NCBI RefSeq assembly: GCF_000016605.1
Contig: NC_009440.1
Span: 992,001 to 1,056,000 of the forward strand
DNA: 64,000 nucleotides
Direction of reading: 5' to 3'
DNA from: Metallosphaera sedula DSM 5348
GTDB taxonomy: Archaea; Thermoproteota; Thermoprotei_A; Sulfolobales; Sulfolobaceae
Positions 37 through 61,256 of this stretch are shown piece by piece. Numbering within the stretch: position 1 is the stretch's first letter; each line of letters begins with the position of its first letter. The notes below the pieces were generated by a model, which did not search any database, was not told the origin of the DNA, and was given only the letters and a program-made list of their open reading frames with translations. The position numbers and the translations under genes were made by a program.

Positions 37-867
37 CTATTTCCTCGAGGTGATGGTCAAATAAATTCCTATCAAGGTAATGATGGAACCAATTGCCTCC
101 CCAGCTGAGGGTATCACGCCCAATGTAAGGAAGCTAAGGATATACGCTGCAATGGGGACCAGAAGGGAACCCGCTGAGGCCCTAATGCTTCCCATTTCCT
201 TCAGGGCGTTAAACCAGAGGATATAACCTAGCGCTTGCCCCAGTATCCCTAACAAGATCAAGAGAACCAGTGCTAGGGGCGTAAAGGTAAAGTAGTAGTC
301 CAGCGGGGTCATGGCCAAGGTCACTGGAAGTGAGACCAAGCTCATGAAGGCATTAAGTTTTGGAATGCTCTCACCCTTGAGATTTCTTGAGTAGTACACA
401 GTCCCTATGGCCCAGCTTATCCCTCCTGCAAGCGCAATCAGAATTCCTAGGTCGAGGCTCGCCTAAGTTATGGAGAAGGCTAGCCCCAAGATACCTAGGA
501 GAATTCCGATTACCGACCTAGTGGAGATGCTGGTTCCCAGAATTCTCTCAAAAATAATCACGAAAATGGGCTGAGTGTAGATCATTAGTGCTGCTAAACC
601 TGGGTTTGAAGATATGGATGTTCCCACGTTGAGGCATAACATAAAGATAGTGAAATTGAAGATCGCGGTAACTAGTTGTTTCCTTCCCACTGAAATCTTG
701 AAGCCTGAGACGATCAAAAAGAAAAGTGCTCCAATCGCGAATCTGACCCAAGTAATTATTATGGGGGAGACATCCGCTGAAACTATCTTGGTTAAGGGAT
801 ACGTCAATCCCCACACAATGGCCAGGGGGCCTAACCATCTTAAACCCTTGAGAGAGGCGTTGGACAC
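37..867 (-). pseudogene. EamA/DMT-family transporter interrupted by an in-frame amber codon
   Basis: Two adjacent reading frames encode the two halves of a drug/metabolite-transporter (EamA) permease. The first half (GTG start at 867) gives four to five hydrophobic helices and ends at a TAG at 463-465. Reading through the TAG in the same frame gives about 21 residues ([14 protein letters not shown]...) that join directly to the second half ending at 37, for about 276 residues, the normal length of the family. There is no frameshift, only one stop codon. A TATA-like CTATTTAAAC at 892-901 lies about 25-34 nt before the GTG, fitting a leaderless transcript. It is probably a recent nonsense mutation or a base-call error. 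Pyrrolysine readthrough is not expected in Sulfolobales. The substrate cannot be told. Confidence 0.8.
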
Positions 868-37591: not shown

Positions 37592-38827
37592 ATGATATAC
37601 AGGGTAATTCCCTCGAGGCCAGTGACAGTGATAGAGAGCTTACCGAACAAAAGTGTATCCTCTGACGATCCGAGCAGTTTCCTTGTGGTTGATCAGGAGG
37701 ATAATCCCCTGGACTCTTATTGGGACGGAAAGAGACTCTACGTCGTTCCTAAGGAGAACACCACTGCTATTTACCTCATAGAGGCCTCACCTGGTTCCAC
37801 GGAGTTCAAGGGATCCAACCCGCCCATGACGGAGAGACCCTCATCACCCGGTATTCCACGGGAAGTTGGGGTTGATAGGTTGAGGTTCTCCAACTTCAAG
37901 GGGATCGCTGAGGGTGAGCTTGATCTTAGGGACGTGGCGATCATATTAGGAGGAAATAACGCAGGCAAAACAACCGTCCTGGAGGCCATCTACCTGCTCC
38001 TTAATCCCGACATAAGGGAGGCGTTCAACGTCCTTCCATATCTTCGTCAGGTCGATGAATTGAGTGTAAAGGCTGGCATTAACGAGATCCAGAATTGGGT
38101 AAACCTGTTCCGATACTATCAGAGGGGAAATTTTAGGATTGAGTCTGGATCGAATTTCGTGGAAGGTCGTTACGATAACCAGAGAATTCTCCTGAAGCAT
38201 CCGGATTATGAGGCTGGCATGACTCCTGGTGAAGGATTTAGCATCATGAAGGGAGTTTCCCCCGAGTCTAGAATTGAAACCTTGTTATTCAGTCCAAGAC
38301 TTGCATACGTTTATTTCTCGAGAATAGCTCAAAATTGGGAGGAAATATCCAATCTAACCGAAGCCGTAAACTCTATTCTCGACGAGTTGAATGAAATTAG
38401 CAATGAAAAGTATCAATTTATCACCTTCGAGCCCTTCAGAGGTATTCAGACGCTGTACCTAGTGAAGGATGATAAGAAGAGAGTTAGGATTGCTGATGTA
38501 GGTGAGGGGTTCAAGATATATGTAATCCTGAGGCTAATGTTTGAGTATTATAAGCCAAGGGTTCTCCTATGGGATGATATAGAGAGTCACATGAATCCCT
38601 TCACCCTAGCCTCGATTTCAGGTTGGCTCTATAGGATATCCAAGACAAGGCAGATCCTTGTGTCTACCCATAGTCTCGAGGCTGCGAAGATCGTGATGAA
38701 CGCCACAGGAAAGGACAGTATAATAGTGGATGTTATCGATGGTAAAATGACATACAGGAGACTTTCCCTCTCTGAGTTAGAGAGATATGAGGATTTGGGA
38801 GTTGATCCCAGGACCCTGAGGGTTTAA
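37592..38827 (+). CDS. AAA15/OLD-like ABC-type ATPase
   Basis: A 411-residue protein. Residues 1-90 form a beta-rich N-terminal part of unknown kind. From about residue 94 there is a RecF/SMC-like head: VDRLRFSNFKGI, Walker A GGNNAGKTT (about 119-127), a helical insert (about 140-280), DVGEGFKIYVILRL in the signature position, Walker B VLLWDDIESHMNP (about 322-334) and the STHS switch. This is the architecture of AAA15/OLD-type ATPases that partner with Toprim or other effectors in defence systems. It is followed after 2 bp by its likely partner. TATTTATTGTTG upstream is the promoter. Confidence 0.8.
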   Translation: MIYRVIPSRPVTVIESLPNKSVSSDDPSSFLVVDQEDNPLDSYWDGKRLYVVPKENTTAIYLIEASPGSTEFKGSNPPMTERPSSPGIPREVGVDRLRFSNFKGIAEGELDLRDVAIILGGNNAGKTTVLEAIYLLLNPDIREAFNVLPYLRQVDELSVKAGINEIQNWVNLFRYYQRGNFRIESGSNFVEGRYDNQRILLKHPDYEAGMTPGEGFSIMKGVSPESRIETLLFSPRLAYVYFSRIAQNWEEISNLTEAVNSILDELNEISNEKYQFITFEPFRGIQTLYLVKDDKKRVRIADVGEGFKIYVILRLMFEYYKPRVLLWDDIESHMNPFTLASISGWLYRISKTRQILVSTHSLEAAKIVMNATGKDSIIVDVIDGKMTYRRLSLSELERYEDLGVDPRTLRV

Positions 38828-38829
38828 CG

Positions 38830-39567
38830 ATGAATATAGTGATCAGAGCTTCTCATCTGTTTTCTAGGGCGAGGATAACGATAGAGATCCTTCGTGACTT
38901 AAGCAAGGTCGATCAGTCCCTCAAGGTAAATATCCCCAGCTTAATGGCAGGTGGGAAGGCTGATAGGGGTCTATTAATCCTTAATGGTAGGTTGGACCTC
39001 GAGATCATATTGGCCGTTCTATCATCGGCAGGGCTTAACAGCGAGAATCCCTTGGATATTTTGCAACCTAAGGCTATGAGAGGGCTAATCAACTGGAGAA
39101 AAGCAATCAAAGAGGTCTCACAACTTGGGCATAGAGTATACGGGGTCATAGGAGATATAGATAGCGAGGAAAATATTGAGAGAATTTTTGACAACAATCA
39201 GAGTTACCTTCAATCCCCTTACGAGTTTACGGATCCTGATAGGAAGATATTTCTAGCATTTAATGGTGTACCCAGTGATAAAAGATTCAGTCAATTTGAA
39301 ATGGAACAGAACATAATTAGATGTTTTGAAAGAGTTCCCAAGTATGCCCCTGTCGTCAAGGAGCTTCTGAGATCCGGACCAGTGGACCCAAAGATAGCTC
39401 TGAGGAACTTTCAGGAAAAGTATGAGCGTGACGGTAACCTAAAGCAGAAGGTTGGAGGAAGACCATTAGAACTTCATCAAGCTTTAATGTACTTCATCGT
39501 GAAAAACCAGGAGTGCAGAAGCGAATTCCAACATCTATATGATCTAGTGAAGAAAGTGATAGCCTAA
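38830..39567 (+). CDS. Putative Toprim-like partner of the ATPase
   Basis: A 245-residue soluble protein starting 2 bp after the ATPase gene, so the two are co-translated. Residues 49-68 (LILNGRLDLEIILAVLSSAG) look like the first Toprim motif with Asn in place of the usual Glu, and VYGVIGDIDSEENI (103-116) gives a D-x-D. The C-terminal half is helical and basic. The gene order resembles ATPase-Toprim pairs such as AriA-AriB (PARIS) and split OLD systems. The fold assignment is my inference; it could also be a non-catalytic relative. Confidence 0.5.
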   Translation: MNIVIRASHLFSRARITIEILRDLSKVDQSLKVNIPSLMAGGKADRGLLILNGRLDLEIILAVLSSAGLNSENPLDILQPKAMRGLINWRKAIKEVSQLGHRVYGVIGDIDSEENIERIFDNNQSYLQSPYEFTDPDRKIFLAFNGVPSDKRFSQFEMEQNIIRCFERVPKYAPVVKELLRSGPVDPKIALRNFQEKYERDGNLKQKVGGRPLELHQALMYFIVKNQECRSEFQHLYDLVKKVIA

Positions 39568-40754: not shown

Positions 40755-41073
40755 GATTTATTTTAACCTTGAGAAGATATAAACCTGACCTCGAGGACAT
40801 GAAGGGTTGGGGTGTAGTAGTATTCTCGCGGTCTTTCCCCGCGTGAAGATGGCTCATCACTCCTCACGGGTCTTCCAGGGTGGAGAAGATTTTGGTAACT
40901 CCAGGTTAAAGTCAGGTTTCGAGTGTCCTCTCCATCTAACTCGTCAAAGATGTCAGGGAAAGTAAATACTCTTCCTCTAGGCATTGTCAACCGTCCAACC
41001 CATACCAAACACGTGAGAGGTTCATAGCTACACACGTTCAATCGCTTGATCTGTGAGGAATAGTTTTATGTAT
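40755..41073. other. Intergenic region between divergent genes
   Basis: About 320 bp. A 92-codon minus-strand frame (40763-41041) covers it but has an unusual residue mix and no start signal, so I do not call it. AGTTTTATGTATC at about 41062-41074 is the TATA region of the next gene. Confidence 0.4.
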
Positions 41074-41105
41074 CTAGTCTCATAAGACTAGTCTCATGAG
41101 ACTAG
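41074..41105. promoter_or_regulatory. Overlapping palindromes covering the start of the ATPase gene
   Basis: CTAGTCT (41074-41080) and AGACTAG (41085-41091) form one inverted repeat. CTAGTCTCATGAGACTAG (41088-41105) is a perfect 18 bp palindrome that shares the middle half-site. The ATG of the ATPase gene (41096) lies at its centre, and the TATA-like element is directly upstream, so a bound protein would block initiation. This is a strong candidate for a repressor site. Confidence 0.65.
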
Positions 41106-42280
41106 TACTACAGAGAAAGGAGTGCGAAGAGCTCAAGCGGGTAGATTACTGGATATTGCTTTTCGGGAGAAGGAAAACTGGGAAGACGACGCTAATCAAG
41201 AACTGTGCCAAATACGATTATTTCGTCACAATAGCCAATGAATCTGAAGGTCTGCTCGAGGACGGTGAGAGGATAGGAATCCCAGAGCTGTTGAGGGAAA
41301 TTCGCTCAGAGGTGAGAAGGGGTGGTAGGGTGGTCATTGACGAGTTTCAGAGATTACCAGAGAGGTTCTACGCGGACATCTCCACTCTCGACAGGACGGG
41401 AGGGCTAGTCCTAGCCGGCTCGAGTTACGGGGTTCTCAACAAGGTCTTTGACAGTAATTCCCCACTTCTCGGCCTTGTGACCCCAAGAGAGATTCCCATC
41501 CTGAGGTATGAGGAGGTCTTGTCCCAGGTTGGGGACCCAGTTCTCTCAACTCTCTTCAGGGATCCGTGGGTTATCCCCTTCGTGAACTCCTACGGGGAAT
41601 TCCTGGATAGGATAAGGGAGTTCTCCCTCATCTCCAAGGGGTTAGTTGGCGAAATATTCAAGGAGGAGGAGAGAAGCCTGACCGAGCTGTACTATCAGTC
41701 CCTCCTGAAGGTGGCTGAGGGCGTGTGGAAGACCTCGGATCTAGCGGGTATCCTCCAGGTTAAGGGAGGAGAGGCCACCGTTTCCTCCCTGATGAACCGG
41801 TTAAGTAAGATGGGCTTAGTGAGGAAGATCAGAACCCTGGGGAAAGAACTGTATTACAGGCACGTCTCCCCAGTGATCTCGTTGGCGTTTTACGCTGAGT
41901 CAAAATATCTAGTCAGTGACAGAGACGTCAAAATCCCAGAGTTGCCCATTGGCCTCGAGGTTCAGTTCTCAGTGGGCGAGATGATCAGCGAGTACTATGG
42001 CGGAGACTTCGTTTACTCCCCTAGGGAAGACATCGACGTGATTGTCATGAAGGGGAGGAGAAGGTTGATTGCCTTTGAGGTCAAGATGGGCGAGATAAGT
42101 GAGTCAGAGGCAAGGGAGGCGGTGAGGAGGATGGGTAGGGTCGCGGAGAGGGTGGGGCTGATAAGCTTGAGGGAGAGACCCCCCGAGATCGGTGACGTCT
42201 CCTTGGGGCCTACGGAGCTTCTTGAGATGTCCAGGGAGTTGGTGGCGGGGAAAAGGGTCCCAGGTCCTGAGGTGGATTGA
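41096..42280 (+). CDS. Archaeal ATPase with C-terminal PDDEXK-like domain
   Basis: A 394-residue protein: Walker A LFGRRKTGKTTLIKN (about 22-36), Walker B VVIDEFQRLP (about 80-89), a sensor-like GGLVLAGSS, a winged helix (GVWKTSDLAGILQVKGGEATVSSLMNRLSKMGLVRKI) and a C-terminal nuclease-like segment DIDVIVMKGRRRLIAFEVKMG with D...ExK. This is the archaeal ATPase PF01637/DUF234 layout. Such proteins are often linked to mobile or stress loci and their function is unknown. It may control its own start through the palindromes at 41074-41105. Confidence 0.8.
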   Translation: MRLVLQRKECEELKRVDYWILLFGRRKTGKTTLIKNCAKYDYFVTIANESEGLLEDGERIGIPELLREIRSEVRRGGRVVIDEFQRLPERFYADISTLDRTGGLVLAGSSYGVLNKVFDSNSPLLGLVTPREIPILRYEEVLSQVGDPVLSTLFRDPWVIPFVNSYGEFLDRIREFSLISKGLVGEIFKEEERSLTELYYQSLLKVAEGVWKTSDLAGILQVKGGEATVSSLMNRLSKMGLVRKIRTLGKELYYRHVSPVISLAFYAESKYLVSDRDVKIPELPIGLEVQFSVGEMISEYYGGDFVYSPREDIDVIVMKGRRRLIAFEVKMGEISESEAREAVRRMGRVAERVGLISLRERPPEIGDVSLGPTELLEMSRELVAGKRVPGPEVD

Positions 42281-60269: not shown

Positions 60270-61256
60270 ATGTCTGTCTTAAACAGGATGAACGTCAGCG
60301 CAGAAGAACTGAAATCCATTATCGTGGAGATATTGAACGAAAGGGAAGTCGAGGGAAGCGAGGTTATAGCGGACCACATGGTTGAGGCAGAACTTAGGGG
60401 ACACTCCTCTCACGGAGTTCAGAGATTGATACCCCTTGTGAAGGGGGTAGAACTAGGAACGATCTCAAGGAGATTACAATACGACGTCCTAAAAAAGGAG
60501 AGGGGATCCATGTGGATCGATGGAAAACATAGCGTCGGAATAGTCCTGTGGAACCAATTAATCCAACACGAGTTCGACGAACCCTCCAGTGTCATAGCAG
60601 TGAAGAATGCTTCCCACATTGGTTTCCTAGGTTATTACACGGATAAACTAGCCACACGAGGTTATGTGGGGATCATGTTTGGAAATGCCGAGCCCGCGGT
60701 AGTTCTCCCCGGTACCTCAAGGAAACTCCTGTCCACAACGCCCCTCTCAATTGGTATTCCCCATGCCCCTCCCATTGTCTTGGATATGGCCCTGTCATCC
60801 ACGTCAAGGGGGAAAATATTGGAGGCCCAGAGAAAGGGCGAACCCATACCCGAGGGATGGGCAGTGGACAGCGAGGGAAAACCGACCACCGATCCTGAGC
60901 TTGCCCTAAGGGGTGGGATACTCCCAATCGGGGGAATAAGGGGTTTCTACCTCATGCTAGTCCTTGAAATACTGACGTCATTCATTTCGGGATCGGCAAT
61001 GGGTCCTAACGTGAAGGGGGTACTTAACACTGAAAATCCTCCTAATAAGGGAGAAATATTGATTGTAATAAATCCATTCTACTTTGCGTCTTACACTGAA
61101 CAGATCGATGAAATCAGGAAACTTCTGGGAATGGAGTTCCCTGGGGAGCACGGCCTTCAATTGAAGGCCAGGAGGCTGACCGAGGGCATACCCATTGATG
61201 CACAGCTTTGGAGTACTCTGGTCAAGATGAAGGAAAAGATTCCCTTCTTTATCTAG
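60270..61256 (+). CDS. LDH2/malate-sulfolactate dehydrogenase family oxidoreductase
   Basis: A 328-residue NAD(P)-dependent dehydrogenase of the LDH2 family: AELRGHSSHGVQRL (substrate His, about 44-57), NASHIGFLGYYTDKLATRGYVGIMFGNAEPAVVLPG (His and nucleotide site), NTTPLSIGIPHAPPIVLDMALSS-type segment, GWAVDSEGKPTTDPELALRGGILPIGG. Members oxidise malate, sulfolactate, ureidoglycolate or sugar acids. ATG 60288 (six codons later) is another possible start. It lies 109 bp before the UxaA-like pair. Confidence 0.85.
   Translation: MSVLNRMNVSAEELKSIIVEILNEREVEGSEVIADHMVEAELRGHSSHGVQRLIPLVKGVELGTISRRLQYDVLKKERGSMWIDGKHSVGIVLWNQLIQHEFDEPSSVIAVKNASHIGFLGYYTDKLATRGYVGIMFGNAEPAVVLPGTSRKLLSTTPLSIGIPHAPPIVLDMALSSTSRGKILEAQRKGEPIPEGWAVDSEGKPTTDPELALRGGILPIGGIRGFYLMLVLEILTSFISGSAMGPNVKGVLNTENPPNKGEILIVINPFYFASYTEQIDEIRKLLGMEFPGEHGLQLKARRLTEGIPIDAQLWSTLVKMKEKIPFFI

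Follow-up and report, generated by a model that had tools for sequence, protein, structure and literature searches.

A periodic operator-like array over the start codon of an archaeal AAA-winged-helix ATPase gene: a candidate autoregulatory site of conserved geometry

The gene starting at position 41096 of the analyzed window, a 64,000-nucleotide stretch at 992001-1056000 of the 2,191,517-bp chromosome (C1) of Metallosphaera sedula DSM 5348, encodes an ATPase with a predicted winged helix, and its start is covered by a self-complementary array of half-sites that repeats every 14 bp. The array extends from just past a TATA-like element to codon 4. Arrays of the same geometry are observed at the same place in distant members of the ATPase family, whereas the letters of their half-sites are different. 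A natural and quite probable explanation is that the array is a private autoregulatory operator of the ATPase encoded immediately downstream; we infer both self-binding and repression from comparison of sequences. The family-wide pattern suggests that each ATPase recognizes the start of its own gene and probably shuts this gene off.

The array and the encoded protein

Within the array, 18 of 19 positions are identical at lag 14; the rest of the window never attains 16 of 18 at this lag. The first-pass annotation had described a perfect 18-bp palindrome at the start codon, a second palindrome overlapping with it, and three half-sites. The 18 bp at 41088-41105 are indeed perfectly palindromic, and the symmetry extends to 20 bp, the longest perfect palindrome of the window. 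The overlapping palindrome is present at 41074-41091 but is imperfect, and the exact 7-bp copies number four rather than three: 41074-41080 and 41088-41094 on the minus strand, 41085-41091 and 41099-41105 on the plus strand. The middle two of these overlap by 4 bp. The second-longest perfect palindrome of the window (18 bp) is located at 61152-61169.

Taken alone, a perfect palindrome is weak evidence, because 12 of 50 windows simulated with a first-order Markov model contain one of at least 18 bp. The half-site 7-mer is not rare either, with 15 occurrences in the window versus 12.1 expected. The array exceeds chance because of its 14-bp periodicity, its location at the start codon, and its conservation. 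The features of the locus are listed in Table 1.

Table 1. Coordinates of the operator-like array, its parts, and the adjacent ATPase gene in the window
Feature	Position	Strand	Description
TATA-like element	41064..41072	+	Directly upstream of the array; basis: sequence
Operator-like array	41074..41105	.	32 bp, 30/32 self-complementary; 14-bp period; four 7-bp half-sites, two of them overlapping; basis: sequence, conserved architecture
Upstream palindrome	41074..41091	.	16/18
Downstream palindrome	41087..41106	.	Perfect, 20 bp, start codon inside
ATPase gene	41096..42280	+	394-aa AAA ATPase / winged-helix / putative PD-(D/E)XK protein
AAA domain	41096..41566	+	Residues 1-157; GRRKTGK P-loop, DEFQR Walker B; borders approximate
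Winged helix	41684..41863	+	Residues 197-256, recognition helix about 226-238; approximate, from Pfam and model
Putative PD-(D/E)XK nuclease-like domain	41948..42244	+	Residues 285-383; D314, E328, K330; from alignment and model

The ATPase part of the protein matches the Pfam profile AAA_14 (PF13173; residues 19-141) above the curated cut-off, with 36.2 bits against 27. Among the Pfam profiles, ATPase_2 (PF01637), which represents the SSO1545-type proteins, gave no match at E<=0.001. All NCBIfam matches fell far below their cut-offs, and a sequence search of solved structures returned nothing useful (best E 0.51). A PADLOC match to the candidate defence class PDC-S01 (E 2.4e-9) runs through the ATPase part, residues 19-111, and is a P-loop match. 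The winged helix attributed to the gene product in the first-pass annotation is borne out by the predicted fold (mean pLDDT 92.1) and by a sub-threshold Pfam wHTH match (21.2 bits, cut-off 26). The model contains the AAA domain, a winged helix, and, at the C-terminus, an alpha-beta domain. The winged helix consists of three helices (197-207, 213-220, 226-238) and two strands after them (242-247, 252-256). In the C-terminal domain, D314, E328, and K330 are invariant across 19 aligned members and form a D...ExK pattern, which we take to be that of the PD-(D/E)XK nuclease family. The secondary structure of this domain looks compatible with such an assignment when read by eye; the fold search barely reached beyond residue 279.

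The best fold matches are two archaeal AAA+ ATPases, PABY2304 (2qen; residues 1-267, Z 16.5, 250 aligned residues, 3.4 Å) and SSO1545 (2fna; residues 1-267, Z 15.2, 254 aligned residues, 3.9 Å), both only 18-19% identical to the window protein. STAND proteins and an archaeal Orc protein come next, with Z about 12. The AAA+ plus winged-helix fold is thus common to the window protein, Orc1/Cdc6 (1w5t; Z 12.1, 246 residues, 4.1 Å), and several STAND/AAA+ proteins; Orc1/Cdc6 differ in lacking the additional nuclease-like domain of the window protein.

Conserved geometry and clade-specific half-sites

Relatives of the ATPase were collected by whole-genome searches, since a single-protein scan of genome contigs had given only two loci. 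They were found in 20 of 41, 51 of 214, and 56 of 398 genomes in three overlapping genome sets. In several Sulfolobales genomes the copies are broken by internal stops or appear as split matches (L015, L028, L105, L109). In the closest orthologue, L002 from M. javensis (80% identical), the array is partly kept, and the first codons are in a different reading frame from the remainder of the gene.

In total, 110 distinct start regions were anchored on the P-loop, and 10 further loci lacked this anchor. We retained 97 of the 110 as usable, namely those with a start codon 20-28 codons before the P-loop and at least 55 bp of upstream sequence; among the 13 regions that failed this filter, L011, L013, L016, L053, L079, and L088 show arrays when inspected by eye. 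Clustering of the 97 starts at 60% identity gave 43 representatives.

The 14-bp period dominates the family. In the 43 representatives, which share less than 60% identity, the lag-14 self-identity over positions -34 to +14 is 0.487 (z 17.3 versus shuffles), and the next best lag is 15 (z 5.1); in the upstream control stretch from -82 to -34 the lag-14 identity is 0.292 (n=40). At the level of single starts the signal is more variable: the lag-14 score is significant (p<0.05 against a Markov null) for 62 of the 97 starts and for only 23 of the 43 representatives. No other lag scores as well as lag 14 in 65 of the 97 and in 23 of the 43. Of the weight left over, lag 15 accounts for about half in the 97 starts and for most in the 43 representatives. 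Some members, e.g., L060 and L061, have no clear repeat at the chosen start.

At 83 of the 97 family starts there is a 12-bp run that matches itself in at least nine positions at lag 14 or 15. Such a run occurs at 6 of 119 control starts, which belong to neighbouring ORFs outside the family; two of the six (L075 and L058) are the family array read from the other strand, as judged by eye. These control starts were picked mechanically with homologues excluded; they replaced an earlier set that included family genes from duplicate loci and had at least nine of 12 matches at lag 14 in 21 of 129 cases. Inverted repeats near the start, with at least 10 of 12 positions paired, are similarly enriched, occurring at 60 of the 97 family starts (25 of the 43 representatives), at three of the 119 controls, and in 72 of 970 Markov copies made from the family starts. 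Pooling the starts by position relative to the start codon yields a weak dyad signal, about 0.38 at its highest, because the register varies among starts.

The period is associated with phylogeny. On a tree of the 89 members of the 97 whose proteins have at least 330 aa, lag 14 scores higher in 69 members and lag 15 in 16, with four ties. These labels follow the tree, requiring six changes versus 14.9 after shuffling (none of 500 shuffles was as low), a clustering that is inflated by near-copies. The members with lag 15 do not form a single clade: 12 of the 16 belong to a set of deep branches (L122-L124, L126-L130, L132, L133, L135, L138), and the other four are scattered.

The first-pass annotation had proposed conservation of the palindrome in orthologues as a check of its reading. 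Such conservation is observed in the Sulfolobales: orthologues in the taxonomic family of the window genome mostly retain the half-site of the window gene, with little change in its position relative to the start codon. The architecture extends beyond orthologues. Distant members preserve the place and the spacing of 14 bp, or 15 bp in some deep branches, and have different half-site letters. Clades with other half-sites include L010/L011, L012/L025/L026, L021/L022, L013/L016, L018/L019/L030, L071/L072/L075, and L080/L114. Moreover, several genomes hold two members with different sites, as illustrated by the window gene and L022, a paralogue with 44% identity to it.

The array also leaves a trace in the first codons of the gene. 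We compared codon usage at 14 starts that carry the window-type half-site with that in the remainder of these genes. Where codon 3 encodes leucine, it is CTA in 11 of 13 starts, versus 13% of leucine codons in the remainder (P 1e-8); where codon 2 encodes arginine, it is AGA in all 12, versus 38% (P 9e-6). These P values are overstated, because the 14 starts were chosen by eye and are mutually related; the direction is clear and indicates that DNA letters, and not amino acids alone, are kept here.

The site is nearly confined to the start of its own gene. With at most two mismatches, the 18-bp site is found in its own genome only at the two places of the array and, with two mismatches, at C1:29838, and a reversed control pattern has no match; at three mismatches, the control pattern itself gives four forward matches and one reverse match. 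A wider regulon in this genome was considered and rejected, the only extra site falling, as read by eye, inside the apparent coding frame of an RNA polymerase subunit. A relaxed form of the operator pattern was also searched for in 31 genomes of the taxonomic family. It matches 21 places, spread over 15 genomes, and 18 of these places are the start of this ATPase gene; its reversed control has no match. Among the places away from the gene, the one in G023 lies inside another reading frame (by eye). In G024 (L155, about 1500-1532) the array and the first three codons persist and are followed by a stop and, further on, by a transposase-like ORF, again as read by eye; the ATPase gene itself was not found by a search of this genome, and the site is an apparent operator relic. 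In G018 (L144, about 1488-1518) there is a second, double operator-like site between other genes, away from the ATPase gene. The gene copy of this genome (L020) looks cut short.

Self-binding and competing readings

The array lies over the expected promoter and start of its own gene and is conserved together with this gene, as is characteristic of autoregulatory operator systems. In the proposed mechanism, the winged helix of the ATPase would contact the array, the protein being a dimer or a larger assembly in which the recognition unit repeats in steps of 14 bp (about 1.33 helical turns). With the transcription start and the start codon occupied in this way, RNA polymerase would be blocked and the level of the protein kept low; the switch would be the nucleotide state of the ATPase. 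Repression is the natural reading because the site overlaps the expected promoter and start region, and the ATPase itself is the simplest binder because the geometry tracks the family while the letters differ by clade and paralogue. The first-pass annotation had suggested tight repression, possibly by the protein itself, a reading that is partly supported here.

The exact position of the transcript bears on the alternative that the array acts as RNA, with a hairpin around the start codon controlling translation. Such a hairpin would account for the strong inverted repeat spanning the start codon and for the conservation of inverted repeats there in the family. In 96 starts of the family, however, TATA-like hexamers are most frequent between -33 and -28 relative to the start codon, and with the typical spacing of archaeal TATA elements and transcription starts the 5' end of the transcript would fall about at the start codon. 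The array would therefore cover the transcription start of a presumably leaderless transcript, leaving the upstream half-array outside the RNA, so that no full hairpin could form. Leaderless transcripts are reported as the majority in Sulfolobus acidocaldarius (PMC10653856). Besides, a hairpin does not need a direct 14-bp repeat, yet that repeat is a strong conserved signal. We consider control by an RNA structure very unlikely.

Binding by a separate host transcription factor, and not by the product of the gene, is somewhat easier to entertain, though still improbable, given that the role of the ATPase as the binder is deduced from the pattern of the sites. Operator similarity tracks overall protein identity (r 0.57, 64 members), a correlation predicted by self-binding and by plain common descent alike. 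In the same 64 members, the partial association of operator similarity with the recognition-helix window 226-238 ranked 91, 103, and 47 of 373 in three identity ranges, and the best co-variation windows lie elsewhere, e.g., at 260-272. Against a host factor, the half-sites vary within one genome and across clades while the geometry is constant, and the spacing class follows the ATPase tree, so that the factor would need to change alongside each clade. A host factor would also find little else to bind in the M. sedula genome, where the only further match with at most two mismatches is the one in the coding frame mentioned above.

Finally, the array could be mainly a recognition or cutting site of the nuclease-like domain, in a self-marking or homing-like arrangement, with regulation being secondary. 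The invariant D, E, and K residues of the C-terminal domain are consistent with this possibility, as are the patchy distribution of the gene and its breakage in several genomes, which resemble those of mobile or conflict genes, and the relic next to a transposase-like ORF. The location in many clades, right after the TATA element and across the start codon, however, is better explained by control of expression. None of 75 pattern matches in viral contigs was confirmed as a relative, and a search of plasmids with the window protein gave none. This reading appears to us scarcely probable.

Self-repression by the ATPase, the preferred reading, has counterparts among known systems. Autorepressing proteins such as the antitoxins of toxin-antitoxin modules act at a palindromic site over their own promoter. 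Here the likeness is in the way of working only, as the candidate system consists of a single gene encoding an ATPase, and no homology is claimed. A precedent closer in architecture is Orc1-2, an archaeal AAA+/winged-helix transcriptional regulator whose own promoter contains a motif that it binds (PMC9738581). The same study presents Orc1-2 as a global regulator acting through a short hexanucleotide at several genes, whereas the site described here is long, periodic, and nearly confined to its own start. Autoregulatory operators as such are already known. A literature search, covering mostly papers outside subscription, gave among the matches listed no account of a family-wide set of private start-codon operators with conserved geometry at AAA-winged-helix-nuclease-like proteins.

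Related ATPases and wider scope

Start repeats were also observed in some PF01637 relatives, the SSO1545-type proteins, with a spacing unlike that of the studied family (15-19 bp and others). These counts come from two exploratory sets (L158-L187 and L188-L227) with mechanically chosen starts and are raw. In the first set, 23 starts were picked by a P-loop pattern from 30 loci, and at least nine of 12 positions match at lag 19 in seven of them, at lag 15 in five, at lag 23 in four, and at lag 14 in none. In the second set, with 36 starts after removal of four of the 40 fetched loci that had no start codon, an inverted repeat is present in 15 and a direct repeat with at least 12 of 14 matches in 10. 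Exceptions are provided by the 11 copies from G026 among these 36, none of which has such a direct repeat and two of which have an inverted repeat. Taken together, this suggests that private start-codon repeats, differing in their letters, reach beyond the studied family.

A more general scenario, which we put forward as a tentative and rather doubtful extension, is that a private periodic start-codon operator is a hallmark of archaeal STAND/Orc-like AAA-winged-helix ATPases. Under this scenario, paralogues would be insulated, self-repressing, DNA-bound switches that assemble cooperatively on a lattice of 14, 15, or about 16-19 bp; release by nucleotide or ligand would free the nuclease-like effector for defence or conflict, and the letters would diverge so that paralogues avoid cross-regulation. 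Archaeal genomes can carry many AAA-winged-helix ATPases of poorly understood role, PF01637 matches alone reaching up to 18 per genome in 16 archaeal genomes. If the scenario is true, the DNA targets of such ATPases can be read from sequence and their binding tested one by one. Dozens of natural protein-site pairs would then become available for analysis of DNA choice by AAA+/STAND winged helices and of its control by ATP. It would also imply a strong pressure toward low levels of these proteins, which is what one would expect of dangerous effectors.

Another ATPase gene of the window belongs to the pair at 37592-39567, where a gene for an AAA_21/AAA_15 ATPase is followed after 2 bp by a gene for a 245-aa protein. 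The latter has no match in Pfam (E<=0.001) or PADLOC (E<=0.1). Because the ATPase of this pair resembles defence ATPases such as AriA and OLD, the two genes may form a two-gene defence system.
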